Below the pieces are notes generated by a model. It did not search any database, was not told the DNA's origin, and saw only the letters and a list, made by a program, of their open reading frames with translations. A program made the position numbers and the translations under genes. Positions 3,307-59,640 of a stretch of 64,000 nt of DNA are shown here, one piece after another; position 1 is the first letter of the stretch, and each line of letters starts with the position of its first letter. Source of the DNA: Haloarcula marismortui ATCC 43049 (GTDB taxonomy: Archaea > Halobacteriota > Halobacteria > Halobacteriales > Haloarculaceae); NCBI RefSeq assembly GCF_000011085.1, contig NC_006396.1, positions 434,001 through 498,000 of the forward strand, written 5' to 3'.

Positions 3307-4010
3307 GCGACGCGACGTGGCTGACAGTGGTCGCGATAGCGGCCGGTGCGCAGTTGGCGGTCCTCCCCGGAGAGAAAGTCCAGTTCATCATCGCCGGCCT
3401 GTCGACGCGGTTCAACCCCCTCCTCGTCGTCAGCGCGGCGGGGACGGCCTTCGCTGGCTGGACGGCGCTGGAGATATGGTTTGGCTCCGCAATCACGTCG
3501 CTATTGCCCGGCATCGTCCTCGAAAGCCTCACCGCCGGGATGTTCCTGCTGTTCGCGATACTACTGCTCCGCAGTGCCCCGGCAGCCGGCGCAGAGCAAC
3601 AGGAGCCTGCGTCCGGCTTCACCACTGACGGCGGACAGCTAGACGTTCGCGTTCCCGTCGTCGACTGGCAAGTACCGAACAAGCTCGGCGGCTTCCTCCC
3701 AATCTTTGCGATGATGGCCTTCGGCGAGTTCGGCGACAAGACTCAGCTCATTACAATCACGCTCGCCGCCCAGTACAGCGCCCACGCCAGCGCTATCTGG
3801 ACCGGTGAGATGCTCGCCATCATTCCGGTGAGCCTCGCCAATGCGCTGTTTTTCCACCGGTTCGCCCATCGGTTCAACCTGCGGAAAGCTCACTTCGTCG
3901 GCGCAGGGCTGTTCCTGTTTTTCGCCGCGGACTTCGCCCTGAGCGTGACGATGGGGGTCTCGCTGTGGGAAACGATGGTCTCATCCATCGCGGCGCAGGT
4001 GGGCGCCTGA
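3303..4010 (+). CDS. GDT1/TMEM165 (UPF0016) family membrane protein, probable Mn exporter
   Basis: A 235-residue integral membrane protein starting at GTG 3303, overlapping the sirR stop codon (translational coupling). The second half carries the family hallmark EFGDKTQ (encoded at about 3726-3746) at the start of a three-helix repeat. The equivalent position of the first half reads LPGEKVQF, a weakened copy in which the E-x-G-D-K-T pattern is largely lost. UPF0016 proteins (TMEM165, Gdt1, MneA) move Mn(II) or Ca(II) out of the cytoplasm in exchange for protons. Coupling to a DtxR-type regulator suggests manganese homeostasis. The asymmetric repeats could mean altered selectivity or heterodimer-like division of labour. 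Confidence 0.8.
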   Translation: MSDATWLTVVAIAAGAQLAVLPGEKVQFIIAGLSTRFNPLLVVSAAGTAFAGWTALEIWFGSAITSLLPGIVLESLTAGMFLLFAILLLRSAPAAGAEQQEPASGFTTDGGQLDVRVPVVDWQVPNKLGGFLPIFAMMAFGEFGDKTQLITITLAAQYSAHASAIWTGEMLAIIPVSLANALFFHRFAHRFNLRKAHFVGAGLFLFFAADFALSVTMGVSLWETMVSSIAAQVGA

Positions 4011-4070
4011 GACGAACGGCTGATTTGAGCGACAGAAGACTTTTCCAGAACGGCTGAACAGTTCCGAGTA

Positions 4071-4469
4071 ATGCCCTCCAGACGTAGCGTTCTCACAGCA
4101 GGAACACTCGTTGCACTCTCGGGCTGTGCAGCACTCAGTCCTGCGAGCGCTCGACTCGCTGGCGTACGGCTAACGAACACCGGTTCGGCGACACGTACGT
4201 TCGAATTCACGGTCACGGTCGACAGTGAGACGATGTACGAGGAGACACATACTGTGAGGGCCGCGGAGGACGGTGCAACCGTGGAGTTGGACGATACGCT
4301 GCCGGACAGACAGGGCAAGATAACGATAGCGACGGCCATCGCCGGGACCGATATTTCAGAGGAGACAACGTTTGATGATAACAACTGTTACGATGTCATT
4401 GTCGAGTACACCGCTGACAACGTCGTCCACTGGCAGAGCGGGCGCAGCGACTGTGACGCATTCCAGTGA
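4071..4469 (+). CDS. Tat-type lipoprotein of unknown function
   Basis: A 132-residue protein with an N-terminal signal MPSRRSVLTAG, a hydrophobic stretch and a lipobox LSGC (Cys at residue 19). This is the usual Tat-exported, lipid-anchored layout of haloarchaea. The mature part is a short beta-rich acidic domain with two cysteines near the end (NNCYDVIV and RSDCDAFQ) that might form a disulphide. No family was recognised. It is convergent with the metal permease gene at 4545, whose products it does not resemble. Confidence 0.65.
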   Translation: MPSRRSVLTAGTLVALSGCAALSPASARLAGVRLTNTGSATRTFEFTVTVDSETMYEETHTVRAAEDGATVELDDTLPDRQGKITIATAIAGTDISEETTFDDNNCYDVIVEYTADNVVHWQSGRSDCDAFQ

Positions 4470-4544
4470 CTCGCTCATCGGCCAGCGTTTCGTCGCCAGC
4501 CGTGGCTCCCGGTTGCAATCATCAACTTCAGTCGAGAAAGTCGT

Positions 4545-5519
4545 TCAGTCCTGGCTGATAGTGTCGAGTTCTCGCGTTTCATCCGGCGCGCCTGTCTGTC
4601 GGACTTTCCCGGCAAAGACCGAGAGGACGTAGATTCCCACTGCGACGAGAACGATGACGCCGCCGGCTGTCGCACCGGCGTAGTACGAGATACCGATACC
4701 GAGCAGGACGGCCAGTTCAGCCAGTACAATCGAGACCAGCAGTGATTCCGAGAAGCTCCGGGACACCTGTGTCGCGCCGGCGACCGGGACGACCAGCATG
4801 GCCGCGACGAGGATGACGCCCATGATCTGCATCGCGCCGACGACGACGAGCGCCGTCAGCATCACCATAATCCGGTTGTACCAGGCGACCGGGAGCCCGG
4901 CGACGGCGGCGGCGGTCTCGTCGAACGTGACGTACAGCAACTGATTGCGGGTGAGCGCGACCGTCCCAACGATGACGCTGAACAGCCCGAGCATGATGAC
5001 CGCATTCTCGGCGGACACCGTCGAGAGGTTGCCAAAGAGGTACTGATTGATACCGACGGCCAGACCGCCAGCGTTGAGACTGATGAGGACCGTCCCCAGC
5101 GCGAACCCCGTCGAGAGGACAATCGCCATCGACACGTCGTTGTAGGCGTCGGTCGCCTCGGAGATGAGTTCGATAAGCAACGCCGCGATGACAGCCACGA
5201 CGACGGCGGTGAGATACGGCGAAACACTCAGTTCGAGGACGGCGTTGAGAAACAGCCCGACAGCGACGCCAGCGAAGGCTGTGTGGGCGAGTGCGTCCCC
5301 GATGAGGGCGAGCTGGCGGTGGACGAGAAAAGTCCCGATTAACGGTGCGATGACGCCGACACACAGCCCAACCAGTATCGCCCGGTACATGAACGTGTAC
5401 TCTGGATTGATGAGGTCCAGTCCGGTCAGCTGGTAGAGTAGTGCCAGAAGCCAGTACCACACTTCGAGAATCGGGAGGAACGCCTCGTAGACGCCGCCAG
5501 CAGCGAACGCAAGCGTCAT
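4545..5519 (-). CDS. metal ABC transporter permease (ZnuB/MntC-like, ABC-3 family)
   Basis: A 324-residue polytopic membrane protein with the ABC-3 family signature region (FLVHRQLALIGDALAHTAFAGVA) near residue 65 and about nine hydrophobic helices. It is the membrane channel of a Mn(II)/Zn(II) uptake system. The start ATG at 5519 overlaps the TGA of the ATPase gene (ATGA), and the order solute-binding protein, ATPase, permease is one operon read leftward from about 7407. The substrate is not fixed by sequence. The TTAGA-N4-TCTAA operator shared with the sirR gene favours manganese. Confidence 0.85.
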   Translation of the reverse strand: MTLAFAAGGVYEAFLPILEVWYWLLALLYQLTGLDLINPEYTFMYRAILVGLCVGVIAPLIGTFLVHRQLALIGDALAHTAFAGVAVGLFLNAVLELSVSPYLTAVVVAVIAALLIELISEATDAYNDVSMAIVLSTGFALGTVLISLNAGGLAVGINQYLFGNLSTVSAENAVIMLGLFSVIVGTVALTRNQLLYVTFDETAAAVAGLPVAWYNRIMVMLTALVVVGAMQIMGVILVAAMLVVPVAGATQVSRSFSESLLVSIVLAELAVLLGIGISYYAGATAGGVIVLVAVGIYVLSVFAGKVRQTGAPDETRELDTISQD

Positions 5520-6319
5520 CGGTTACCTCCGGTCAGCGACTGCGCACCCGTCCCGAACGCTCTGGCCAGCGCCGCACTGTCGGTGAATTCTGCCGATGGC
5601 CCGTCGAAGTATATCTCGCGGTTCAGGCAGATAACGCGCTCCGCGTGTTCGATGACGGCCTGCAGGTCGTGTTCGATGAGCAGGACGGTGATGCCCTCGG
5701 CGTGGAGCGATTCGAGCAGTCCGTAGAAGGCGTCGACCGATTCGGTATCCACGCCGACGGTCGGTTCATCCAGAACGAGCAGGTCAGCCTCACCTGCGAG
5801 CGCCCGGGCGATGAACGCCCGCTGGCGCTGCCCGCCGGAGAGCTGGGTGATTCGCCGGTCGGCGAACCCCGACATCCCAACGGTATCGATGGCCCTGTCG
5901 ACGATACGCCAATCGGCCGCGGAGAGACGCCCGAACCCGACGTGTGGGAACCGGCCCATCTTGACCACTTCGCGGACCGTTATGGGCATTTCCCGGCTCG
6001 TCCCGGCACGCTGTGCGACGTAGCCGACTCTGGCCCCGTCGTCGAACGCCGTCGCGTCGACGCCAAACAACTCCGCAGTTCCGCTATCCGGTTCCAGAAG
6101 CCCGAGCAGCAACTGCATGAGCGTCGACTTGCCGGAGCCGTTCGGGCCGACCACGGCGACGTACTCCCCGGCGTCGATACTGACACTGATGTCTTCAACG
6201 ACGGGCGTAGACGTGTACCCGAACGACACGTCCGTGAGTTCGACGACAGCTGGCCTGTTCTCGCTCGATTCGGTCGTCGCTTCGTCGGCATCGTCTCGAT
6301 GGTGTGAGCGCATGGTCAT
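5516..6319 (-). CDS. metal ABC transporter ATP-binding protein (ZnuC/MntB-like)
   Basis: A 267-residue ABC ATPase. Walker A is GPNGSGKST, the signature is LSGGQRQR, Walker B is LLVLDEPT and the switch histidine is in LLIEHDLQ. It powers the permease encoded immediately downstream. A longer frame runs upstream to 6460 but would overlap the solute-binding gene. ATG at 6319 (MTMRSHH), or ATG 6313 six bases later, gives the normal family length and follows the upstream stop by two bases, so 6319 is chosen. An acidic N-terminal extension of about 20 residues precedes the ABC core. Confidence 0.88.
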   Translation of the reverse strand: MTMRSHHRDDADEATTESSENRPAVVELTDVSFGYTSTPVVEDISVSIDAGEYVAVVGPNGSGKSTLMQLLLGLLEPDSGTAELFGVDATAFDDGARVGYVAQRAGTSREMPITVREVVKMGRFPHVGFGRLSAADWRIVDRAIDTVGMSGFADRRITQLSGGQRQRAFIARALAGEADLLVLDEPTVGVDTESVDAFYGLLESLHAEGITVLLIEHDLQAVIEHAERVICLNREIYFDGPSAEFTDSAALARAFGTGAQSLTGGNR

Positions 6320-6321
6320 CC

Positions 6322-7407
6322 TTATTCGAAGTTCCGCCACTTCTCGCTCCAGCCGTCGGGGCCCGCGTCTGCAGGTGCCGTGTTGCCCAGAACGACCTCG
6401 AACGTCGGCATATTTATTTGGTAGGCGATTTCCTCGTACCCCCAGCCGTTTTCGACCCACTCCTCACGGACGCCAGCATACGGCGTCACGGGGTAGTAGG
6501 CTTCGACCGGTGTCTCGGCGAGGAGCTGCTTTGCAGGCTTGCGCGTCTCGAAGACACCGGCCCCGATGTACCGGATGTCATTGTCCTCGATGACCGCTTT
6601 CGCTTCGGTGATGTCCGAGGGCTTCACGTCACCGCTGGCAGCGAGGTTGACCACGAGCGGGCGCATCTCGACGCCGTAACGCGAGCCGATGTACTGGAAG
6701 GCGTTGTGCGCCGCGAGCTGGACCACGTTCCTGTCGGCCCGGTCGAAAATATCGGCGTAGTCCGCGTCGATGCGGTCGAGAACGTCCGCGTTGTACGTCT
6801 CGGCGTTGTCCCGGAGCGTATCTTCGGCGTCCGGTGCGAGCGCGACCAGCCCCTCGGTAATATTGTTGACCGACTGTTTCGCGCGTTGCGGGTCAAGCCA
6901 GAAGTGGGGGTCGCTGGCTCTGTTCTGTCCGACACCCTCTTCGTCGCGGTCGAGACTCGCCGCGAGCGATTCGAGTTCGATACCCTCACGGACGTTGATG
7001 AGTTCGGTATCGACGTTGTCGTCTTCGAGGGTCTGAATCGCGCGGTCGGCCCATGGCTGGAAGTCCGGGCCGACGTGAATGAACGCGTCCGCGTCGATGA
7101 TATCTCGCGTGATCCCAGCGTCCGGTTCCCAGCCGTGGCCGTGCAGTCCGGTCGGGATGAGGTTCTTGACCGTTATCGGCGTCCCGCGGGCGACCTTTCG
7201 AGCAAAGTCATAGAAACTGAAAAACGACGCAACCGCGACCGGTCCGTCCGCACCACTGGCGCTGTCGCTGCTATTCGTTGCCGCTTCCGTCCCGCCGCCG
7301 GTCAGACAGCCGGCAAAGCCGGACGCAAGGACCCCCGCCCCGGCACTGAGTGCCTGCCTGCGGGTGACCCTACACGACTTATCGTCACAGGGTTGGTTAG
7401 TTTCCAT
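6322..7407 (-). CDS. metal ABC transporter substrate-binding lipoprotein (ZnuA/MntA-like)
   Basis: A 361-residue cluster A-I type binding protein. It has a Tat signal (TRRQALSAGAGVLASG) ending in a lipobox FAGC, so it is exported folded and lipid-anchored outside the membrane. Metal ligands typical of the family are seen at HGHGWEPD, DPHFWLDP and AAHNAFQY. An acidic pocket residue is expected near the C-terminus. No long His-rich loop of the ZnuA kind is present, which slightly favours Mn over Zn. It is the first gene of the three-gene operon. A TATAAT element at 7432-7437 lies about 27 bases from ATG 7407, predicting a leaderless start. Confidence 0.87.
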   Translation of the reverse strand: METNQPCDDKSCRVTRRQALSAGAGVLASGFAGCLTGGGTEAATNSSDSASGADGPVAVASFFSFYDFARKVARGTPITVKNLIPTGLHGHGWEPDAGITRDIIDADAFIHVGPDFQPWADRAIQTLEDDNVDTELINVREGIELESLAASLDRDEEGVGQNRASDPHFWLDPQRAKQSVNNITEGLVALAPDAEDTLRDNAETYNADVLDRIDADYADIFDRADRNVVQLAAHNAFQYIGSRYGVEMRPLVVNLAASGDVKPSDITEAKAVIEDNDIRYIGAGVFETRKPAKQLLAETPVEAYYPVTPYAGVREEWVENGWGYEEIAYQINMPTFEVVLGNTAPADAGPDGWSEKWRNFE

Positions 7408-7445
7408 GTGTTGCTTGCTATCGGGAAAGGGTATAATAGTTCTCC

Positions 7446-7472
7446 TCTAATTAGAGTATTAGACTAATCTAA
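7446..7472. promoter_or_regulatory. candidate SirR-type operator upstream of the metal ABC operon
   Basis: TTAGA-CTAA-TCTAA at 7459-7472 has the same arms and spacing as the site before sirR. Next to it, at 7446-7455, TCTAATTAGA presents the half-sites in the opposite order without a spacer. Both lie just upstream of the TATA element of the leftward metal importer operon, where a regulator could affect TFB/TBP loading. Confidence 0.55.
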
Positions 7473-7561
7473 TAAAGCAGGTCACTCGTGGCTGAAATCT
7501 ACTCGGTGTCACAGACACGAGCGGACACAACACATAAACCGGCGCTCGAAGTTGGTCCGAT

Positions 7562-8152
7562 ATGCCCGGACTCGACGACACGGACCACGAAATCCTCCGG
7601 TTGCTGCTCGAAGACGCCAGACGGCCCTACAGCGATATCGCCGAGCGAGTGGATCTCTCGGCCCCTGCGGTCTCCGACCGCGTCGACCGACTCGTCGAAA
7701 TGGGACTGATACAGGGGTTTACTGTCGATGTCGACCGCTCGCTGTTACAGGCCGGCGTACCGTTCCTGATCGAGATAGATGCAAAGCCGGGTCGGGCCGC
7801 CGATATCGCCGAGTCGGTCAGCGACGCCGACACCATCGAGCGGGTCTATCGAACTGCCGGCGGCCGAGTCGTGCTCGCGGCGACCGTTCCTCAGGCCGAC
7901 GCGAGCGAACTCCTCGCCGAACACGTCGACCTCGGCGACGTGGACCGCTATGAAGTGCGGATGATTGCGGACAGCGAATGGACCGCGGGGCTAGGTGCGG
8001 CGGAGTTCGCGCCCGACTGTGCGGAGTGTGGCAACACCGTCGATGAAGAAGGCGAGCAGCGCACACTCGACGGAGAGCGATACTACTTCTGCTGTGGGTC
8101 CTGTGCAGGGCGATTTGTCGACCAGTACAAGTCGCTGAAAGACAGTGCCTAA
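7562..8152 (+). CDS. AsnC/Lrp-type HTH regulator with TRASH domain, probable copper sensor
   Basis: A 196-residue protein. Residues 1-60 are an AsnC-family helix-turn-helix (LDDTDHEILRLLLEDARRPY, SAPAVSDRVDRLVEMGLIQG). A short RAM-like middle follows. A C-terminal TRASH/YHS-type metal-binding domain has CAECGN at residue about 155 and FCCGSCAGRF at about 180. TRASH domains bind soft metals such as copper through these cysteines. The next gene is a Cu(I) P-type ATPase. A homologous arrangement in Halobacterium (as I recall, VNG1179C) controls copper efflux, so activation of copA by copper is the likely role. ATG 7562 is the first Met that keeps the whole HTH. Confidence 0.85.
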   Translation: MPGLDDTDHEILRLLLEDARRPYSDIAERVDLSAPAVSDRVDRLVEMGLIQGFTVDVDRSLLQAGVPFLIEIDAKPGRAADIAESVSDADTIERVYRTAGGRVVLAATVPQADASELLAEHVDLGDVDRYEVRMIADSEWTAGLGAAEFAPDCAECGNTVDEEGEQRTLDGERYYFCCGSCAGRFVDQYKSLKDSA

Positions 8153-48378: not shown

Positions 48379-49554
48379 CTACTGCTGCAAGTCGTACAGC
48401 CGTCGGAACGCAGTCGGCGGGAACCGCGGTTCGACGCGGCTCGGTGGGCGTCCCTGACCATTAGTGACCGTCGCTTCGACGCGGTCAACGACGCCGGATT
48501 CAGCCATTTCGTAGAGGAACCGTTTGACGGTCCCGGCAGAGAGATCGACTGACTGTGCCGAGGCAATCGCCTCCGTCGTCGCCGTTACCGAGGAGCGTTC
48601 GCTCTCCTCTAGGTCGATGAGTTCCCTGAGAACGGTCTGTCGGTTTGTCGGCAGAGAGAGAACAACGCCTAACGAAACACAGGGGTCGGGCACCTCCGCG
48701 ATGGCCGCGTCGACGTTGGCCTGTGTGATCCGGTCCTGGCCCCGTTCCTCGGCCAGTTCTGCAGCGATAAACAAAGCGGCAAGGGCATCGTGGGCGTTGC
48801 CGTCGGCCCAGTCAGCGATATGTCTCGCCTGACCGTGATCAAGTCCCTGCTGGGCCAGCCCGTTCGAGGTTCTGGTCATCAACACGTCGACGAGCATCTG
48901 ACGCTGGTAGCGGTCGATACTGATCGACTCGGCGGTGTACCGCGTCAGTTCAGTTGTCGACGGGTCATCGCGACCGATAGCGAGCCAGCTAACGTTGCTC
49001 GGTAAGCCAGCAAACAGGTCAACGAGGGCCGGGGCCTGGATGCTCTCCGGTTCGCCGATGTGGTCGACAGCAATGACGATGCCTGTGCGTTGCCCTCGGA
49101 CCAGGTCGTGGAGCCGTGACTTGAGCGTCTCCGTCCCGATCCCATGCTCCGGCACCGAGTCGTCAACGAGTGCGTCCAGAACCGCGTGGTAGAACGCGAA
49201 CTCGCTTGCGGTCTCTCGGGCGTTCACGTAGACGAACGACGGAGAGGTCGGTGGCTGTGCACGGGTCGTTGTGTGGATAATCGCCTGTTGCTCCGTCGGG
49301 AGCTGTTCTAAGTTGGCGAACAGCGCCGTGATAACCGCGGACTTCCCTGAACCGCAGGGGCCGTACACGTACGCGTTCGGCGGAAGCTGCCCATCGAACA
49401 CTGGATCGAGGTGGTCGAGGAGCCGTTCGAGGACCGGCCCGCGGTCGGCCGGCTCCTCTATGTGGACGACCGGTGAGATAGACTCGTAATCCTGAATGAG
49501 GCGTGGCTCACCGTTCCGGCGTTGTCGACGCTTGATTCTCGCTTCAATGTCCAT
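48379..49554 (-). CDS. Orc1/Cdc6-like AAA+ protein with altered Walker B
   Basis: A 391-residue Orc1/Cdc6-family protein. Walker A is GPCGSGKS (65-72), an AAA+ lid follows and a C-terminal winged helix (about 300-391) includes SVDLSAGTVKRFLYEMAESGVV. Where initiators have a DE or DD Walker B, this protein has IVIAVDHIGEPESI, losing the second acid. Replication initiators of haloarchaea lie beside origins, but I see no origin repeats here. The gene sits between a sugar kinase and the glycerol operon. It may be an inactive paralogue or a regulator rather than an initiator. Confidence 0.75.
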   Translation of the reverse strand: MDIEARIKRRQRRNGEPRLIQDYESISPVVHIEEPADRGPVLERLLDHLDPVFDGQLPPNAYVYGPCGSGKSAVITALFANLEQLPTEQQAIIHTTTRAQPPTSPSFVYVNARETASEFAFYHAVLDALVDDSVPEHGIGTETLKSRLHDLVRGQRTGIVIAVDHIGEPESIQAPALVDLFAGLPSNVSWLAIGRDDPSTTELTRYTAESISIDRYQRQMLVDVLMTRTSNGLAQQGLDHGQARHIADWADGNAHDALAALFIAAELAEERGQDRITQANVDAAIAEVPDPCVSLGVVLSLPTNRQTVLRELIDLEESERSSVTATTEAIASAQSVDLSAGTVKRFLYEMAESGVVDRVEATVTNGQGRPPSRVEPRFPPTAFRRLYDLQQ

Positions 49555-49616: not shown

Positions 49617-50705
49617 TTACGGCAGGGGGATAGCTGCGGAGGTCGTGAACACTCCAGCCAGTGCCAGAATGCCCAGGATGAGGGTCGTCGTGATGATCGA
49701 CGCGGCTGGCGGGTCGAAGTGCGTATCTGAGTGGGCGTAGAAGATACGCTGGTAGACCTCACCGAGCAGCGCACCCAGGATACCGAAGGCTGCACCGAGC
49801 ACAAGTGCGACTAAGACACTCGCTCCGTCCGTCATCGCCATACTGGCGACGAACGTTGCCGGGAGCGTCATGTGGTGCGTAACCGGGAATTTCTCCACGC
49901 CGAGGTTCAGGAACAGCAGGCTCGCTGCTGAGATACCGAACGGGAGGAAGAGACTCCCCGTTTTCGCGAAGATGTACGCACCAAGGATGCCGGTAATGAG
50001 CCCGAGCATTGCGACGTGCGTCCACTTGTACTGGTGTGGGAGCCACGGTTCGACAGCCGGTCGTTCGGCGGCCATTCCACCATCCGTTGCGACTTCTTCA
50101 CTGCTACTCGACCGCATCTTGCCGCTCTCGAATGGCGACATATCCAGCAGGCTGCTGCCGCGGACACGTCCGATAACCGGGTACCCGAAGACCAGACGGG
50201 CGATAACAGCCGTCAGGATGACACCTGCTGCAGGCGGGTCAATCGGAATCCCGAGTCCACCGGACGTCTGCCGGATTGCCATACCCAGGATACCGAAGAC
50301 CCCACCGACAGCAAGGACATCCGGTCGAGTACCGAGGGCGTAGGCGATGTCCTTCGCTGGGTGGTAGTCACCGTCGTCCGGCTCGTACATACCGTCGTAC
50401 TTCGCAGCGTACGCTGCTGCTGCCACACCACCGGCGAAGGCGACGTGCGGCCCGAACACAGGACCGAAGGCCAGTGGACCGACGATGCCAGCGCCGTAGC
50501 CACCGGCGGCACCTGCAATGACATCAGGCGAACCGCCGACGAATGACTCGGAGACAACGTTGCCGGCCTCTCCGATAAGCACCATGAAGCCGGTGAAACA
50601 GAACGCCGGGAGTGCACCGATAGAGGCCCCGAACGCGCCACCCGCGAACGCCGCGATGGCAAGGACGAGCATATCAACCGCCGTGAGTCCGAATGCGATT
50701 GCCAT
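49617..50705 (-). CDS. internally duplicated membrane protein, candidate glycerol permease
   Basis: A 362-residue polytopic membrane protein starting three bases after the glpK stop, so it is in one transcript with glpK. About nine hydrophobic helices are split by a hydrophilic loop (about 181-227). Each half has an FGIL helix (137-140 and 307-310) followed by a short DPPAA motif (156-160 and 331-335), showing an internal duplication. There are no NPA motifs, so it is not an aquaporin-type GlpF. Haloarchaea lack an evident MIP gene beside glpK and, from memory, keep a homologue of this protein there. Uptake of glycerol is therefore the leading hypothesis, not established by sequence. Confidence 0.65.
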   Translation of the reverse strand: MAIAFGLTAVDMLVLAIAAFAGGAFGASIGALPAFCFTGFMVLIGEAGNVVSESFVGGSPDVIAGAAGGYGAGIVGPLAFGPVFGPHVAFAGGVAAAAYAAKYDGMYEPDDGDYHPAKDIAYALGTRPDVLAVGGVFGILGMAIRQTSGGLGIPIDPPAAGVILTAVIARLVFGYPVIGRVRGSSLLDMSPFESGKMRSSSSEEVATDGGMAAERPAVEPWLPHQYKWTHVAMLGLITGILGAYIFAKTGSLFLPFGISAASLLFLNLGVEKFPVTHHMTLPATFVASMAMTDGASVLVALVLGAAFGILGALLGEVYQRIFYAHSDTHFDPPAASIITTTLILGILALAGVFTTSAAIPLP

Positions 50706-50708
50706 CTG

Positions 50709-52241
50709 TTATTCCTCCTGTGCCCAGTCACGGGAACGGTCGACGGCGTCGTCCCAGCGGGCGTACATCTTGTCTGCCTTTCCAGCGTCCATCTCCGGCG
50801 AGAACTCCTCGTCGACCTGCCAGTTGTCCCGAAGTTCGTCGACGGTGTCCCAGTACCCGACGGCGAGGCCGGCTGCGTATGCCGACCCGAGGGCAGTGGT
50901 CTCGTCAACCTGTGGTCGAGCGATGTCCGTCTGGATGATGTCGGACTGGAGCTGACAGAGGAAGTTGTTCTTGACTGCACCACCGTCGACTCGCAGCGTC
51001 GTCATCTCGACACCGGAGTCTTCCTCCATCGCTTCCGCGAGGTCGCGGGTCTGGTACGCGATGGATTCCAGGGTCGCACGCACGATGTGCTCTTTTCGCG
51101 TTCCGCGGGTCATTCCGACAATCGTCCCGCGGGCGCGGCCGTCCCAGTGCGGAGCGCCGAGACCCGTGAAGGCCGGCACCATGTAGACACCGTCGGTTGA
51201 TTCAACCGAGCGGGCCAGTTCTGCTGTCTGGGCGGCGTTGTTGATGAGGTCGACGTCCTCGAGCCATTCGATGGCCGCGCCGGCGATGAAGATGGAGCCT
51301 TCCAGCGCGTACTGGACGGGCTCACCGGACATCTGGAAGCCGACGGTCGTCAGCAGGCCGTTATCCGAGGCGACTGCTTCGGAGCCAGTGTTCATCAGGT
51401 AGAACGCGCCGGTGCCGTAGGTGTTCTTCGCATCACCCTTGTCGAAGCAGGTCTGGCCGAACAGCGCGGCCTGCTGGTCGCCCAGCGCGCCCGCAACGGG
51501 GACTTCCTCTTTGAGGAAGCCGTCCGCGTCGGTGTGCCCGTACAGACTCTCGTCGGAGGACGGGCGGACTTCCGGAACCATGGACTCCGGAACGCCGAAC
51601 TCTTCGAGGAGTTCATCGTCCCACTCCATGTCGTGGATGTTGTACAGCATCGTCCGCGATGCGTTCGAGACATCCGTGATGTGGTTGCCGGTGAGCTTGT
51701 AGATGAGCCACGCGTCGATGGTCCCCATCAGGAGTTCACCGTCTTCGGCTCGCTCACGGAGGTCAGCGCCGCGCGAGCTCTGCATCTTGAGTGGTTCCGC
51801 GTTGTCGAGGATCCATTCGGTCTTGGTCGCCGAGAAGTAGGCGTCACATTCCAGCCCGGTCTTCCCCCGGATCCATTCGACTTTGTCCTCTTCCTGAATT
51901 TCCTCGACGCGGTCGGTGGTTCGGCGGTCCTGCCAGACCAGCGCGTTGTGGACCGGTTTGCCGGTCTCCTTGTCCCAGACGATCGTCGTCTCACGCTGGT
52001 TCGTGATGCCAAGCGCTTCGAGCTGTTCGGCACCGACACCTGCATCCGCCAGCCCCTTCGTCACGACTTCCTGCGTGTTTTCCCAGATTTCGACGGGGTC
52101 GTGCTCAACCCAGCCGGGCTCCGGGTAAATCTGTTCGTGCTTCTCGTAGGCATTCGCAACGACCTGGCCGCTGTGGTCGAACACCATGAAGCGGGTACCG
52201 GTCGTTCCCTGATCGATCGCGCCAACGTATGTGTCTGCCAT
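50709..52241 (-). CDS. glpK: glycerol kinase
   Basis: A 510-residue FGGY-family kinase that makes sn-glycerol 3-phosphate from glycerol and ATP. The start is YVGAIDQGTTGTRFMVFDH with the phosphate loop, then TNQRETTIVWD, the substrate Asp in AFTGLGAPHWD and RVDGGAVKNNFLCQLQSD near the C-terminus. The length is normal. Glycerol released by Dunaliella is a main carbon source for haloarchaea. A long inverted repeat surrounds its TATA element. It is the first gene of a leftward operon with the duplicated membrane protein, opposite to glpABC. Confidence 0.95.
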   Translation of the reverse strand: MADTYVGAIDQGTTGTRFMVFDHSGQVVANAYEKHEQIYPEPGWVEHDPVEIWENTQEVVTKGLADAGVGAEQLEALGITNQRETTIVWDKETGKPVHNALVWQDRRTTDRVEEIQEEDKVEWIRGKTGLECDAYFSATKTEWILDNAEPLKMQSSRGADLRERAEDGELLMGTIDAWLIYKLTGNHITDVSNASRTMLYNIHDMEWDDELLEEFGVPESMVPEVRPSSDESLYGHTDADGFLKEEVPVAGALGDQQAALFGQTCFDKGDAKNTYGTGAFYLMNTGSEAVASDNGLLTTVGFQMSGEPVQYALEGSIFIAGAAIEWLEDVDLINNAAQTAELARSVESTDGVYMVPAFTGLGAPHWDGRARGTIVGMTRGTRKEHIVRATLESIAYQTRDLAEAMEEDSGVEMTTLRVDGGAVKNNFLCQLQSDIIQTDIARPQVDETTALGSAYAAGLAVGYWDTVDELRDNWQVDEEFSPEMDAGKADKMYARWDDAVDRSRDWAQEE

Positions 52242-52262: not shown

Positions 52263-52286
52263 GGTAGCTTATTTATGAAAGCTACC
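52263..52286. promoter_or_regulatory. inverted repeat over the glpK TATA box
   Basis: GGTAGCTT (52263-52270) and AAGCTACC (52279-52286) are perfect 8-bp arms around an A/T-rich spacer ATTTATGA. The spacer contains the likely TATA element of glpK, about 30 bases before ATG 52241. Binding of a repressor here would block TBP. GlpR or TrmB-type regulators are candidates; neither gene lies in the window. Confidence 0.55.
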
Positions 52287-52369: not shown

Positions 52370-54922
52370 CTACCGGCCGGAATCGTACCGTTCAAGCTGT
52401 TTTGTGACCTGTGTGTCGAGTCGCTTGAGCGCGGACGGGACCGAATCGGGTCCGTCCATACTGTCGGCGGCGTCTTCGATGATCGTTCGCACTGTGTCGA
52501 ACGGGCCTATCTGCGCGCCCCGCGTCGCCGTGGTGTCACGTGTCTCCGTGAGCTGGTCGAACGCCGTCCTGTAGTGTGGGTTCTGTTCGAACCAGTCCGC
52601 CGACCGGAGCTGTGGAATCGCATCCGCGTGCACTGGGAAGTAGCCGGTTTCCTGATGCCACCGACGCTGTTGAGCGGGTTCAGTGAGCCAGGTGAGGAAT
52701 TCACCCACAGCCTCGTGAACCCCCTCGGAAACTTCGTCACCGACCCAGAGCGATGCGCCGCCGACGAGTACGCCGGTCCGGTCGTCAAGGACGGGGAATC
52801 GGCCGGTCCCGACATCGAAGTCGGCGCTGCTTTCGATACTGTTCAGCGACGATGTCGAGCCGATCAGCATCGCGGCGTTCTCCTCAGCGAAATGGGTGCG
52901 AGCCGCGCCTCTGGCCTCAATACCGGGGTCGTGGTACAGGCCGTCCGCTTCGAGGCCCTGCCACCAGTCGAATAAGTTGTGGGCGAACTCGCCATCGAGA
53001 TAGCTCTCTGTCGGTGCCCCGGACCGCCCGTTGTTCTTGTCTACGAGGAGTTGGTCGGCCTCGGCAAACCACTGCTCGACGAACCATGAGTAGTTCGCAA
53101 ACGTGATCCCAGCATCCACGCCACCCCTGTCGACGAGCGTCTCAGCCGCGCTCCGAACGTCAGCGAGAGTTTCTGGCGGCGAATCAGGGTCAAGTCCAGC
53201 CTGTTTGAACGCATCGCGGTTGTACGCCATCACCGGGTTCGACGCGTTGAACGGGAGCGAGTGGAGCGTCCCGTCGAACCGGTAGTAGTTCGTCACCGGG
53301 TCGAGCAGCGAGTCGATGTGGGCTGTCGGGAGGAGTTCCTCGACAGGTCTAAAATATCCACTGTCGCGCGCACGCGTGGTGCCGATCTCAAATATCTGTG
53401 CGATTGCCGGTGGATTACCGTTTTCAGCGGCGTTTAGCGTCGCATCGAGCGTCCCGCGGTAGCTCCCTTTCGACCGCAGTGCGAGGCTGATGCCGTCAGT
53501 CTGTGATTCGAACTCGCGAACGAGCTCTTCCAGCAGTAACGCTTTCTCACCGCCCATTGCGTGCCAGAACTCGACGACGGTCCCGTTTGTGTTGGCCGCC
53601 GCCGCACCGGTCGCCAGTTCAAAGGAATCGAGTGATGCATCCAGTGACTCGGCTCGCTCAGTGAGCGTCGAGACACGCGTCGAGACCTCTGCGAGTTCCG
53701 TCGTCTGGTCCGCTGCGGCGTCAGCGGCGACGGCCGCTTCTTCGGCCGTCCGGGCGCTTATCCCCTCGACATCGTCGACCATCGACACGACTTCCTGTGT
53801 GGAATCGGCCTGCGTATCCGTCGCATCATCGATTTCCTGTACGCTCGAATCGACCTCTTCGACCATCGAAACGACGGCATCCAGTTCGTCGAGTGCGCTG
53901 GCGACTGACGAGCGGGTATCTTCGACACTGTCTCGAGTGTCGTGCATCTCCGAAACCGTTGCGTCAGCCTGTTCGTGAACTTCTTGGATGGAGGTCGCAA
54001 TCTCGTCGGTCGCTTCCTTTGTCTCGGTTGCGAGCGATTTGACCTCCTCGGCTACAACAGCGAATCCGTCGCCGGATTCCCCTGCTCGGGCCGCTTCGAT
54101 GTTGGCGTTCAGCGCCAGCATGTTGGTCTGGTCCGCGACGTCCGTGATGAAATCAACAATCTCCTCGATGTCCGACAGCAGGTCGTTCAGCTGTTCGACC
54201 TTGTCGACGGTCGCTTCGGCGTTGTCGGTCAGCTGGTCAAGCGTCGTCATTGCCGAGGATGCCGACTCCAGTGCGGATTCGCCTCGAACGCTGGCTTTGC
54301 CTGACGTGTCCGCGACCTCGTTTGCGGCGCTCGCTATCTCCTCAATCGTCGCCGAGAGGTTCCGCATCTCGTCGGAGATCGACTGTATCTCGTCGCGTTG
54401 TTCGTCCGAACCGGTAGAAATCTCTCCGACAGCACCGCTCACGTCCCGGCTAGCTGATTTGACTGACCCGAGGCGGGTGTCGACCTGTTCCGTTGCGGCG
54501 GTCACCTGCTCGCTGAACGATGCCATCCGGTCGACGGTGTCTGTCCACTCCCGGAGCAGTTCATCGTATGCCTCATACAGCGGTGCAGCCGTCTCAATCG
54601 GCGGCTCTCCCGGTTTCACGGTGAGGTCGCCGTCGGCGTTTTCTCTGGCAACAGTGGCGAGGTGGTCGACAGCGGTTTCGAGCGCCCGGCGGTCTGCCCG
54701 CTCCTGTTCGAGTTCCGCCGCCAGTTGCTCACACTGTGCTTTCAGTTCCGCCCGTTCGGGGTCGGGTTCCGTTTCCCCGGCCGCTTGTTCTTCTTGGAGG
54801 GCTTCTGTTGACGGCCGTCCACGCTCTGACTCGCTTCCATCCCGCCCCTCTGTGACGCCACCGTCGGTGCGTTCCCCGTCAGGCGGGCCGTCTTCTGAAT
54901 CAAGTGGGTTCCATTTACTCAT
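52370..54922 (-). CDS. cytoplasmic chemotaxis transducer fused to a UgpB-like glycerol-3-phosphate-binding domain
   Basis: An 850-residue fusion. Residues 1-55 are acidic and disordered, 57-100 a coiled coil, and about 130-430 a methyl-accepting signalling domain with the CheW/CheA-binding tip [18 protein letters not shown] (264-281) and [10 protein letters not shown]. From about 448 a family 1 solute-binding domain follows (VEFWHAMGG) that parallels E. coli UgpB block by block: Tyr488, Glu512, Ser561, Ser691/692, Gly721, Tyr761 and Arg812 fall where UgpB contacts glycerol 3-phosphate, as far as I remember. No signal peptide or membrane helix exists, so ligand sensing would be inside the cell. 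It lies between glpK and glpA. ATG 54922 is chosen; a TTG at 54970 is less likely. Confidence 0.85.
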
Positions 54923-54932
54923 TGTCACTCCC

Positions 54933-54950
54933 GTTGGCCAAACGGCCAAC
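54933..54950. promoter_or_regulatory. inverted repeat before the transducer gene
   Basis: GTTGGCC-AAAC-GGCCAAC is a perfect 7-bp dyad ten bases before ATG 54922, in the predicted 5' leader. The TATA-like TATATATT on the minus strand lies at about 54979-54990, so the dyad would be transcribed or lie at the start site. It could be an operator or an RNA hairpin affecting translation. Confidence 0.45.
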
Positions 54951-55272: not shown

Positions 55273-57003
55273 ATGGGACCGACACCACACATCGCCGTCA
55301 TCGGTGGCGGCTCGACTGGGGCGGGCATCGCGCGGGACCTCGCGATGCGCGGGCTCGACGTAACCCTCGTAGAACAGGGGAATCTGACCCACGGGACCAC
55401 CGGTCGAATGCATGGGCTGCTCCATAGTGGCGGGCGGTACGCCGTTTCGGACCAGGCCAGTGCGACCGAGTGTATCGAGGAAAATCGAGTTCTGCGAGAT
55501 ATCGCAAGCCACTGTGTCGAAATGACCGGTGGCCTGTTCGTCAAGCGACCTGAGGACTCCGAGGAGTACTTCCAGAAGAAGCTCAACGGCTGTGAGGAAT
55601 GCGGCATTCCCGCCGAAGTCGTCTCCGGCGAGGAAGCCCGCGCGATGGAGCCACATCTTGCCAAGGACATCGACAAGGCAATCAGCGTCCCTGACGGCGC
55701 TATCGACCCGTTCCGGCTGGTCGTCGCGAACGCCGCGAGCGCACAGGAGCACGGCGCACGCATCGAGACACACACCAAAGTCACTGACCTCCTCGTCGAG
55801 AGCGGCGAGGTCGTCGGTATCGAGGTCGAACACGACTCTGGCCCCGGGAAGCGAGTTCATGGCACTGAAGGCGGGACCGAGCAGATCCGGGCCGACTACG
55901 TCGTGAACGCGACAGGAGCTTGGGCCGGTCGCATCGGCGACATGGCCGGATTGGACATCGAGGTCCGCCCATCCAAGGGCGTCATGACCATCATGAACAT
56001 CCGTCAGGTCGACACCGTCATCAACCGCTGTCGGCCCAAGGGCGACGCCGACATCGTCGTGCCCCACGAGACGACCGCGATTCTTGGCACGACCGACGAA
56101 GAGGTCGAGGACCCCGAGGACTACCCCGAAGAGCAGTGGGAAGTCGACATGATGATCGACACTCTCTCGGAGCTGATTCCGATGCTCGATGAGGCCCGGA
56201 CCATCCGCTCGTTCTGGGGCGTCCGTCCGCTGTATGAACCGCCGGATGTCGGTAGCGACGACCCGACCGACATCACGCGGGACTTCTTCCTGCTCGACCA
56301 CGACGAGCGCGACGACCTGCCCGGCATGACCAGCATCGTCGGCGGGAAATTCACCACCTACCGAATGATGGGTGAGCAGATCGCTGACCACGTCTGTGGG
56401 AAGTTCGGCATCGACGCTGACTGTCGGACCGCCGACGAGCCGCTCCCGGGCAGCGAGGACTTCTCTGTGCTACGGGATTACATGGACGAGTTCGGGCTCC
56501 GGTCGCCGATCGGTCGTCGGAGCGTCGAACGGCTCGGCTCCCGGGCTGATGACGTGCTCAAGACCGACGGGCCGAACCCGACAGTCTGTGCGTGTGAAGG
56601 CGTTACCCGCGCCGAAATTCAAGACGCTATCGGGGGCTCGGGCTCGGACCTCAACGCTGTCCGCATCCGGACCCGTGCGTCGATGGGCAACTGTCAGGGC
56701 GGCTTCTGCTCGCACCGGATGGCGAGTGAACTCCACTCGGAGTACGACGAGCCAGTTGTCCGGGAGGCCTGGGACGAACTGCTTCAGGAACGCTGGAAGG
56801 GGCAGCGACACGCCCTCTGGGGTGAACAGCTCTCTCAGGCAGCCCTGAACTACGCACTGCACGCTACCACGCAGAACCGCGACCAGGACCCGGCGGACGG
56901 CGAGCCGGTCGACTTCTCGGCGTTCGATTCGGGCCGCGGACAAACAGGCGGCAGCGTGGATAGCGCAGACGTGGCCGCCGACGGAGGGACAAATGGCTAT
57001 TGA
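55273..57003 (+). CDS. glpA: anaerobic-type glycerol-3-phosphate dehydrogenase subunit A
   Basis: A 576-residue FAD enzyme oxidising glycerol 3-phosphate to dihydroxyacetone phosphate with GlpB and GlpC at the membrane. The dinucleotide fold is [21 protein letters not shown], and the early substrate region [14 protein letters not shown] follows. The C-terminal extension has a BFD-like [2Fe-2S] domain ([11 protein letters not shown] and GNCQGGFCS, about 436-478). The family length fits. ATG 55273 is the first Met. glpB begins 11 bases before its stop. The product feeds TpiA, also in this window. Confidence 0.94.
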
Positions 57004-58267
57004 GTCGGAGGTACTCGTCATCGGCGGCGGCCTCGGCGGGCTGACCAGCGCACTGGCGGCCGCCCGCGAGGGAGCCGACGTGCGACTGGTTTCGTATAAA
57101 CAGAGCACGCTCCGACAGGCGTCGGGTCTGGTAGACGTGCTCGGCTACACACCGGACGGCGACGGCCCGCTAACCGACCCGTACGAGGCGATCCCGTCAC
57201 TGCCGGAGGCACATCCCTACCGAAAGGTCGGCGTCCAGACGGTCCGGGACGCACTATCGCTGTTCGACGATGCGGTCCCGACCTACGAAGGTGAGCACAC
57301 GGACACGAACGCACTCCTGCCGACCCACGGCGGAAGTATCAAACCGACTGCCCGCTACCCGGCCGGAGCCAGCGCCGGTCTCGCCAGCGACACCCGCGAC
57401 ACGCTGCTGGTCGGCATCGAAGAAATGGTCGACTTCGACGCGCCCCACGTCGCTGCCCATCTCGACGCAACGGGCGTGCCATTCGATGTCCGCGGCGAGA
57501 CCATCCGGTTCCCGGGCGACCTGCGCGCGGACGCGAAGGTCACGCGGTACGCAAAACTGCTCGACACCAACAGCGAGGTGGCAGTTCGCGGGCGAATGGT
57601 CCCGGCCCGCGAGGCGCTCGCCCAGCGCGTGAACCCGTTGCTGGAGGACGAAGAGCGGGTCGGCTTCCCGGCGATTCTCGGCGACGACAACCCCGGTGCG
57701 ATCCGTGATGCACTGGGCGACCACCTCGGCGTCGACGTGTTCGAGGTCCCGATGGGGCCGCCGTCGCTACCCGGCCTCCGACTGGAGGACGCGCTGTTCT
57801 CGGCACTGGACGAGGCCGGGGCCAGCATCGAGACCGGCAATCCAGTCGTCGATTTCGACGGCGAGGACCGTATCGAGAAGGTATTCATCGAGAAGAACGG
57901 CGCGAAGATACCCAACAGCGCCGACCAGTACGTTCTCGCGACCGGTGGCTTCGTCGGCAAGGGCGTCGAATCCGACCGCGAGGGCGTGTACGAACCGGTG
58001 TTTGACTGCCACATCCCCCACGCCGCGGACCGCTATGACTGGTTCGAGGGTGAACTGTTCGGCGACCACGAGTTCGCCCGCTACGGCGTGGCGACCGACG
58101 ACGACCTTCGACCCCTCGATGCGAGCGAGCACAGCGAGTTCGAGAACCTGCGCGCTGCCGGCTCCGTACTGGGCGGCTATGATTTCGCCGCTGAGAAATC
58201 CGGTAGCGGGGTCTCGATCGCAACAGGCTACGCGGCGGGCCAGCGCGCCGCACAGGAAGCACGATGA
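56993..58267 (+). CDS. glpB: anaerobic-type glycerol-3-phosphate dehydrogenase subunit B
   Basis: A 424-residue flavoprotein subunit with an N-terminal Rossmann motif [24 protein letters not shown], the GlpB-typical [12 protein letters not shown] and the C-terminal [25 protein letters not shown]. It passes electrons from GlpA toward GlpC and the quinone pool. Its start overlaps glpA by 11 bases and its end overlaps glpC by four, giving tight coupling of the three subunits. The length is typical. Confidence 0.92.
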
Positions 58268-59640
58268 GTGACGCTGAAACCCCACCAGAGACAGAGTTTG
58301 ACCCGGTAGCACCGAACACAGGCGAGGAGTTCGAACCAGTTGATGTCTTCCCCGACAGCGACGACTTCGACCTCCGGCCCGGCGCGGACTCCTGTTTCAA
58401 ATGCTCGACCTGCGACACGAACTGCCCCGTCGCGGAGGTCGACGACGACTTCCCCGGCCCAAAGTTTCAGGGCCCCGAGCAGTGGCGGCTCAAGCAGTCC
58501 GACGACGACCACGAGATCGACGACTCGGTGATGGACTGCTCGAACTGCATGCGCTGTGACAACGCCTGCCCATCGGGCGTCCCGCTCAGCCAGATGCACA
58601 ACACCGCTCGCGGGGAGTACGTCAGCGAGCAGATGGACAAGCTCTCCGTCGAGTACATCCGGAACCGCATCCTCGCGAACTACCGCACCTCCGCGTTCTT
58701 CGCGAGCAAGGTCCCGCGGCTGGCGAACTTCGCCATGAACTTCGGGCCGGCCCGCTGGGTCATGGAGAAGACGCTCGGCGTCACCAGCGAGCGTGATTTC
58801 CCAGAATTCGCAAAACAGACCTTCCGCGAGTGGTGGGCCGACCGTGGCGGTCAGGTCCAGTCGCGAGAGAACGCGAAGGCAGCCCGCAAACGTCGCGGGC
58901 TCCCCGAGGACGCCGACAAGAAAGTGGCGTACTTCCACGGCTGTTACTCCAACTACAACACGCCGGAGGTCGGCAAGGCGATGGTCCGCGTGTACGAGGA
59001 GTTCGGCTACGAGGTCGTCGCGCCCGAACAGAAGTGTTCCGGGACGCCGATGTTCGCCAACGGGATGCTCGACGACGCCCGCCGCCACGCCGAGACGAAC
59101 GTCTCGTCGATGTCCGAACTCGTCGACGAGGGATACCACGCCATTGCCTCCTGTACCTCGTGTTCGATGGCGCTCCGACAGGAGTACCCCGAACTGTTCG
59201 ACATCGACGGCATCGACAAGGTCGCCGAGAACACCTTCGAGGCCGTCGAGTACCTCCGCATTCACGAAGACCTCAAGGGCGAAGTGCAGGCGGCCGACGT
59301 GGACGGCGACCTCGCCGAGGAGTTCGCCTACCACGCCCCGTGTCACTCGCGCAATCAAGGACTAGACCGCCAGGCCGTCGAACTGTTCCGCGACCTCGAC
59401 GGCGCTGAGGTCAAGGACGTGGGTGACTCCTGTTCCGGCATCTCGGGGACCTACGGCTGGAAAGAGGAGAAATACGAGAAGTCGATGGAGATCGGCGAGG
59501 AGATGTTCGAGCACATGGAACACGCCGAAGGCGAAACCGGCATGACCGAGTGCCCGACCTGCGCGATGCAGATGGAACACGGCAGCGGCTACGAGATCCG
59601 ACATCCGCTCGAACTGCTGGAAGCTGCGCTGGTGGAGTAA
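58264..59640 (+). CDS. glpC: anaerobic-type glycerol-3-phosphate dehydrogenase subunit C
   Basis: A 458-residue iron-sulphur and CCG-domain subunit. Two 4Fe-4S motifs lie in CFKCSTCDTNCPVAE (about 43-57) and CSNCMRCDNACPSGVP (about 93-108). Two cysteine-rich CCG repeats follow (YFHGCYSNYN and SCTSCSMALR, then HAPCHSRNQG and SCSGISGTYGWK). It anchors the complex at the membrane and moves electrons to menaquinone. An N-terminal acidic extension of about 35 residues is a halophile feature. It is the last gene of the operon; a convergent gene follows. Confidence 0.92.
   Translation: MSDAETPPETEFDPVAPNTGEEFEPVDVFPDSDDFDLRPGADSCFKCSTCDTNCPVAEVDDDFPGPKFQGPEQWRLKQSDDDHEIDDSVMDCSNCMRCDNACPSGVPLSQMHNTARGEYVSEQMDKLSVEYIRNRILANYRTSAFFASKVPRLANFAMNFGPARWVMEKTLGVTSERDFPEFAKQTFREWWADRGGQVQSRENAKAARKRRGLPEDADKKVAYFHGCYSNYNTPEVGKAMVRVYEEFGYEVVAPEQKCSGTPMFANGMLDDARRHAETNVSSMSELVDEGYHAIASCTSCSMALRQEYPELFDIDGIDKVAENTFEAVEYLRIHEDLKGEVQAADVDGDLAEEFAYHAPCHSRNQGLDRQAVELFRDLDGAEVKDVGDSCSGISGTYGWKEEKYEKSMEIGEEMFEHMEHAEGETGMTECPTCAMQMEHGSGYEIRHPLELLEAALVE

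Follow-up and report, generated by a model that had tools for sequence, protein, structure and literature searches.

In a 64,000-nucleotide window of the Haloarcula marismortui ATCC 43049 genome, the whole stretch of DNA that was analysed, a single gene joins a chemotaxis signalling domain to a complete solute-binding domain of the UgpB type. Its product is probably a soluble cytoplasmic methyl-accepting chemoreceptor (MCP) with a C-terminal UgpB-type sensor, through which swimming would follow the internal level of a glycerol-phosphate ester. As judged from sequence, the most likely ligand would be such an intracellular ester, with sn-glycerol 3-phosphate (G3P) favoured over sn-glycerol 1-phosphate (G1P) or glycerophosphodiesters. 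The case for a cytosolic, glycerol-linked receptor is drawn from the domain order, the lack of membrane and export signals, an intact CheA/CheW-binding tip, the retained phosphate and glycerol contacts, the origin in one ancient fusion, the loss of the ABC-transporter context, the repeated linkage to glycerol-catabolism genes in several gene orders and the co-occurrence with cheA and glpK. The more specific proposal, that the extracellular binding domain of an importer was captured inside the cell by this single ancient fusion and that haloarchaea steer by internal G3P, and so by glycerol use instead of its outside concentration, is held with slightly less than even confidence.

Table 1. Features of the fusion gene and its neighbours (window positions)
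Feature	Position	Strand	Remarks
Putative MCP-UgpB fusion chemoreceptor gene	52370..54922	-	ATG at 54922, stop 52370-52372; 850 aa
Acidic disordered N-terminal tail, residues 1-53	54764..54922	-	pLDDT < 50; without signal peptide or membrane segment
Degenerate HAMP-like stretch, residues 55-130, ADGDLT motif	54533..54760	-	
MCP signalling hairpin, residues 131-432	53627..54532	-	Pfam MCPsignal 221-388
UgpB-type solute-binding domain, residues 448-850, C-terminal to MCP hairpin	52373..53581	-	
Codon for Asn610, in place of first Trp of glycerol-phosphate clamp	53093..53095	-	
glpK, glycerol kinase	50709..52241	-	TIGR01311, 723 bits
362-aa hydrophobic protein	49617..50705	-	No Pfam or NCBIfam match; adjoins glpK in most glp-linked fused loci
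glpA, glpB, glpC, anaerobic-type glycerol-3-phosphate dehydrogenase	55273..59640	+	TIGR03377, NF003722, NF008369

The whole fusion is encoded by one open frame, running from 54922 to 52373 and followed directly by the stop codon, and Pfam matches were obtained for both halves, MCPsignal (PF00015; E 2.4e-41) and SBP_bac_8 (residues 466-785, E 2.6e-35), confirming an earlier sequence-only reading in which an MCP signalling domain and a whole solute-binding domain were placed in a single chain. The CheA/CheW-binding tip of the hairpin, near residues 261-281, was canonical and largely invariant across 29 family members, and two full matches to candidate methylation motifs were detected at residues 134 and 190. 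In the HAMP-like stretch, G98 was invariant and D99 and L100 nearly so; the Pfam HAMP profile matched 9 of the 29 family members (best E 3.3e-5), the H. marismortui protein not being among them. When compared with Haloarcula vallismortis, Ka/Ks was 0.08 for the HAMP-like and MCP regions together and 0.10 for the solute-binding domain, and reached 0.6-0.72 in the disordered tail, which is thus under weak constraint. Just 5' of the start codon lies an inverted repeat (GTTGGCC-AAAC-GGCCAAC, 54933-54950) that is largely kept in other Haloarcula, with a conserved TATA-like stretch upstream of it.

The resemblance of the binding half to UgpB, also put forward from the sequence, was supported by three types of comparison. 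The NCBIfam UgpB profile NF008211 matched residues 435-827 (E 1.7e-59), although at 201.6 bits the equivalog cut-off of 411 was missed, and a PDB sequence search with the solute-binding half returned E. coli UgpB (4aq4, E 2.4e-51) as top match, Phaeobacter UgpB also being among the best. The structural comparison that had been proposed gave the same answer: the AlphaFold2 model of the binding domain (56 sequences; pLDDT 94, pTM 0.91) had the UgpB fold, its best PDB matches being the UgpB structures 6x84 (TM 0.92), 9lff (0.84) and 4aq4 (0.84). The structures named for comparison were those from E. coli (4aq4 and 6x84), Phaeobacter (9lff) and Mycobacterium tuberculosis (6r1b). The full-length model (pTM 0.53) showed a long helical region from residue 110 to 432 (323 residues) followed by the folded domain; as this is a monomer, the signalling geometry between the lobes and the hairpin is outside its reach, and the pocket was judged by alignment and fold search, not by model geometry.

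The location of the protein was analysed through its hydropathy and its motifs. No membrane helix was detected, as no 15-residue window had a mean hydropathy as high as 1.4 and the 19-residue maximum was 0.95, a possible TTG extension included, and a search for Tat/Sec or lipobox motifs found none. The N-terminal start MSKWNP is conserved within Haloarcula, which together with the hydropathy rules out for this genus an overlooked N-terminal membrane or export segment; the earlier claim that the protein has neither signal peptide nor membrane helix was borne out for the Haloarcula protein. The free-standing UgpB of the same genome (C9:265144-266397, 42% identical) has both a twin-arginine signal and a lipobox, so the absence of an export signal from the fused protein is telling. 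Lacking transmembrane helix and export signal alike, the H. marismortui fusion is classed as a predicted cytoplasmic chemoreceptor. The relatives from Halohasta, Halonotius and Natronocalculus have an N-terminal hydrophobic stretch or a hairpin with a very short turn, this side clade having acquired a hairpin in the membrane that leaves hardly any loop outside, although some members show one clear segment only. As a two-helix hairpin keeps the C-terminal domain inside, we infer that in these relatives too the binding domain would be cytosolic and would be the sole evident sensor.

A search for further fusions of this type, another of the checks suggested by the sequence-only reading, revealed the fused frame in Haloarcula, Halomicrobium, Halomicroarcula, Halapricum, Halorubrum, Halohasta, Halonotius, Natronocalculus, Halalkalirubrum, Haloferax, Natrialba, Halobiforma and Halopiger, as well as in several metagenome genomes. 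All 59 fused binding domains formed one clade (SH-aLRT 99), which spans at least four families and is nested among free-standing haloarchaeal UgpBs of the transporter type, and in bacteria the relatives that the genome scan turned up were free-standing. The tree points to a single ancient fusion in haloarchaea that is conserved in many of them. That two genes were joined by chance or in annotation is excluded by the single frame in dozens of species, the one clade and the low Ka/Ks of both halves.

A long frame joining GlpK and the receptor in one locus (L070) stemmed from a stretch of N within the contig and is no real fusion. Additional fusions were suspected from long frames around solute-binding proteins of ~40% identity in some families, but the regions examined proved to be importer operons without an MCP. 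In one Haloarcula genome (G230, C4:76009-77111), the fused gene is split into two frames of 482 and 225 aa and is apparently disrupted. Another locus (L067:1072-7740) carries in tandem a membrane MCP, a twin-arginine lipoprotein solute-binding protein that is of a different type, and the MCP-UgpB fusion.

The contacts of the pocket were mapped onto the fusion by alignment to the G1P/G3P-bound UgpB of Phaeobacter, in which Gly303, Arg393 and Glu88 contact the hydroxyls, Tyr64, Ser143, Ser266 and Tyr342 contact the phosphate, and Trp188 and Trp191 form a clamp (PMC12718374). The hydroxyl contacts corresponded to Gly722, Arg812 and Glu512 of the fusion and the phosphate contacts to Tyr488, Ser561, Ser689 and Tyr761, respectively, whereas in the clamp Trp191 is kept as Trp613 and the first Trp (Trp188, reported as Trp169 in E. 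coli) is replaced by Asn610, the only exception among the nine positions. Among the residues named as contacts in the sequence-only reading, Tyr488, Glu512, Ser561, Tyr761 and Arg812 were recovered, but Ser691/692 and Gly721 were one to three residues away from the aligned Ser689 and Gly722, and the replacement by Asn610 had been overlooked.

The same pattern extends to the whole clade. The equivalents of Tyr64, Glu88, Ser143, Trp191, Ser266, Gly303 and Tyr342 were invariant in all 59 fused proteins and that of Arg393 was kept in 58 of the 58 scorable ones, whereas the first clamp position was occupied by Asn (49 proteins) or Thr (10). Asn was also found at this position in 40 of 41 free-standing haloarchaeal UgpBs, among which Glu88 was kept in 19 of 41 and Arg393 in 25 of 41; the UgpB of H. 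marismortui itself has Ser and Gln in place of these glycerol-hydroxyl contacts. In the sampled bacterial relatives the first clamp position was Leu, Ile or Val. Trp169 of E. coli UgpB is reported as essential for G3P binding in a review of M. tuberculosis importers (PMC7034087), according to which the M. tuberculosis UgpB, with Leu205 at this position, binds glycerophosphocholine and not G3P. According to a further study, G3P binding was not regained by the M. tuberculosis protein when the Trp was put back (PMC4929945), so that the clamp Trp alone is not decisive. By most of its contacts the fused pocket is a glycerol-phosphate pocket, for which G3P would be a candidate ligand.

The gene neighbourhood provides the link to glycerol. 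As proposed from the sequence, the fusion gene lies between glpK and glpABC, all of them identified by profile matches: glpK is directly downstream on the same strand, with a gap of about 130 bp, and glpABC is divergent. An inverted repeat (GGTAGCTT-ATTTATGA-AAGCTACC, 52263-52286) just upstream of glpK is a possible operator. A gene for a Cdc6/Orc-like AAA ATPase (48379-49554) and that for the 362-aa protein accompany glpK in most glp-linked fused loci; the ATPase may be a regulator, and the hydrophobic membrane protein may take up glycerol.

In 22 of the 55 fused loci, glpK or glpA was found within ~9 kb, whereas neither was detected in the other 33 within the ~9 kb of DNA examined, some flanks being short. 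The linkage takes several forms. In Haloarcula and Halomicrobium the fusion lies between glpA and glpK, and in Halohasta, Natronocalculus and Halonotius the order is glpK, membrane protein, Cdc6-like AAA ATPase and then the fusion; in SHR40 and Haloferax mucosum the fusion is near glpK in other arrangements. Halorubrum, Natrialbaceae and most Haloferax copies showed no glp linkage within the DNA examined. Neither a UgpE permease gene nor a glycerophosphodiesterase gene was found within ~9 kb of any of the 55 fused loci, whereas a UgpE-like permease gene adjoined the free-standing haloarchaeal UgpB gene in 37 of 39 loci, where an ATPase gene is usual and a glycerophosphodiesterase gene frequent. 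As judged from these neighbourhoods, the fusion has lost the ABC-transporter context. The ugp operon of H. marismortui itself (L130:7025-13436, C9) encodes a twin-arginine lipoprotein UgpB, two permeases and an ATPase, and also holds a HAD-like phosphatase-type gene and a gene for a glycerophosphodiesterase-like protein of the twin-arginine type.

At the level of whole genomes, a cheA match was present in 41 of the 42 fusion-bearing genomes that were sampled, compared to 214 of 293 overall, and the single fusion genome without it belongs to a genus whose cheA matches lie near the threshold; H. marismortui has cheA. Similarly, glpK was detected at the chosen threshold in 41 of 42 fusion genomes versus 243 of 293 overall, and in the remaining one (G168) the gene is cut by a contig end. 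The hypergeometric values were ~1e-5 for cheA and ~2e-3 for glpK, both ignoring shared ancestry.

With G3P being made by the product of the adjacent gene, glpK, the receptor is most simply read as one that senses a glycerol-phosphate ester inside the cell. Glycerol would enter the cell and be converted by GlpK to G3P, and G3P, or a closely related glycerol-phosphate ester, would be enclosed between the lobes of the binding domain. Because the sensor stands directly after the MCP hairpin, this closing of the lobes could put tension on the bundle's C-terminal helix and twist or tighten it, with CheA activity being altered and swimming tracking the internal glycerol-phosphate level. Such a receptor would report glycerol use and not mere presence outside. 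Glycerol from Dunaliella is regarded as a main carbon source in salt lakes. From the sequence-only reading of an intracellular sensor of the pathway intermediate, what is retained is a predicted chemoreceptor of the cytosol whose UgpB-type sensor is linked to glycerol metabolism, whereas G3P itself is, in view of Asn610, a candidate ligand; the cell may steer by metabolic flux.

The strongest alternative is that the same cytosolic chemoreceptor binds another ligand, either a glycerophosphodiester from lipid breakdown or G1P, in which case swimming would report phosphate or lipid status rather than glycerol catabolism. The Asn or Thr at the first clamp position of all fused proteins and the many fused genes away from glp genes are in line with it, as are the ligand preference reported for M. 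tuberculosis UgpB (PMC7034087) and the fact that G1P, the archaeal lipid precursor, can be bound by UgpB (PMC12718374). However, the linkage to glpK and glpABC is seen in several gene orders, no fused locus has a glycerophosphodiesterase gene nearby, and the Glu and Arg that contact the glycerol hydroxyls are kept throughout the fused clade and lost in many haloarchaeal transporters, which makes this alternative unlikely on balance, though the most serious one.

Much less probable is a loss of small-molecule sensing, the domain having become a docking or regulatory module that contacts, for instance, GlpK or another enzyme. The relocation to the cytosol with no transporter partner would suit such a role, and ligand-free E. 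coli UgpB also exposes a protein-binding cleft (PMC8144458), but the ligand-contact residues are among the invariant positions in the 59 proteins and the solute-binding half has a Ka/Ks of about 0.1. Chemosensory arrays can have outputs besides swimming, so the receptor might signal from inside to other processes, such as the regulation of genes or the control of cell shape via Che proteins, but this is very improbable given the canonical MCP tip and the presence of cheA in nearly all fusion genomes.

If true, this reading would show how a protein of a transporter can come to serve as a metabolite sensor inside the cell. With a metabolite-binding domain whose homologues have been solved, such a cytosolic receptor would allow the dependence of taxis on metabolism to be tested on a single pocket. 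The literature search found no paper on the UgpB kinship, glp linkage or function of an MCP-UgpB receptor, nor on glycerol taxis via a receptor of this type. An archaeal chemoreceptor survey counts an SBP_bac sensor family and notes C-terminal cytoplasmic sensors (PMC9680633), so that the domain pair has been counted before; its searched passages name no glycerol ligand, UgpB kinship or glp linkage.

One of the closest known systems is Car (Htr11), the cytoplasmic arginine receptor of Halobacterium salinarum (PMC3579733). This haloarchaeal transducer, too, is soluble and free of membrane helices; it responds to a metabolite within the cell and passes the signal on to CheA, as proposed for the fusion. 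Whereas Car responds to arginine, the sensor of the fusion is an entire UgpB-type domain that follows the MCP hairpin. In the BasB/BasT and CosB/CosT systems of the same organism (PMC3579733), haloarchaeal taxis also combines a solute-binding protein with a transducer, as would the fusion, but there a separate periplasmic-type binding protein works with a membrane transducer, whereas the fusion is one cytosolic chain. A BasB/BasT-like two-gene version was seen in Halopiger djelfimassiliensis (G220, locus L157), where a UgpB-like twin-arginine lipoprotein (3587-4792, minus) is divergent from a membrane transducer MCP (5033-7646, plus) with no importer genes nearby, and the same genome also has the fusion. 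Finally, the sensor shares with the UgpB of the UgpBAEC importer its fold (TM 0.84-0.92 against the structures from E. coli and Phaeobacter) and its phosphate and hydroxyl contacts, but differs from it in having no export signal and no nearby permease genes, in being joined to an MCP and in the change of the first clamp Trp to Asn.
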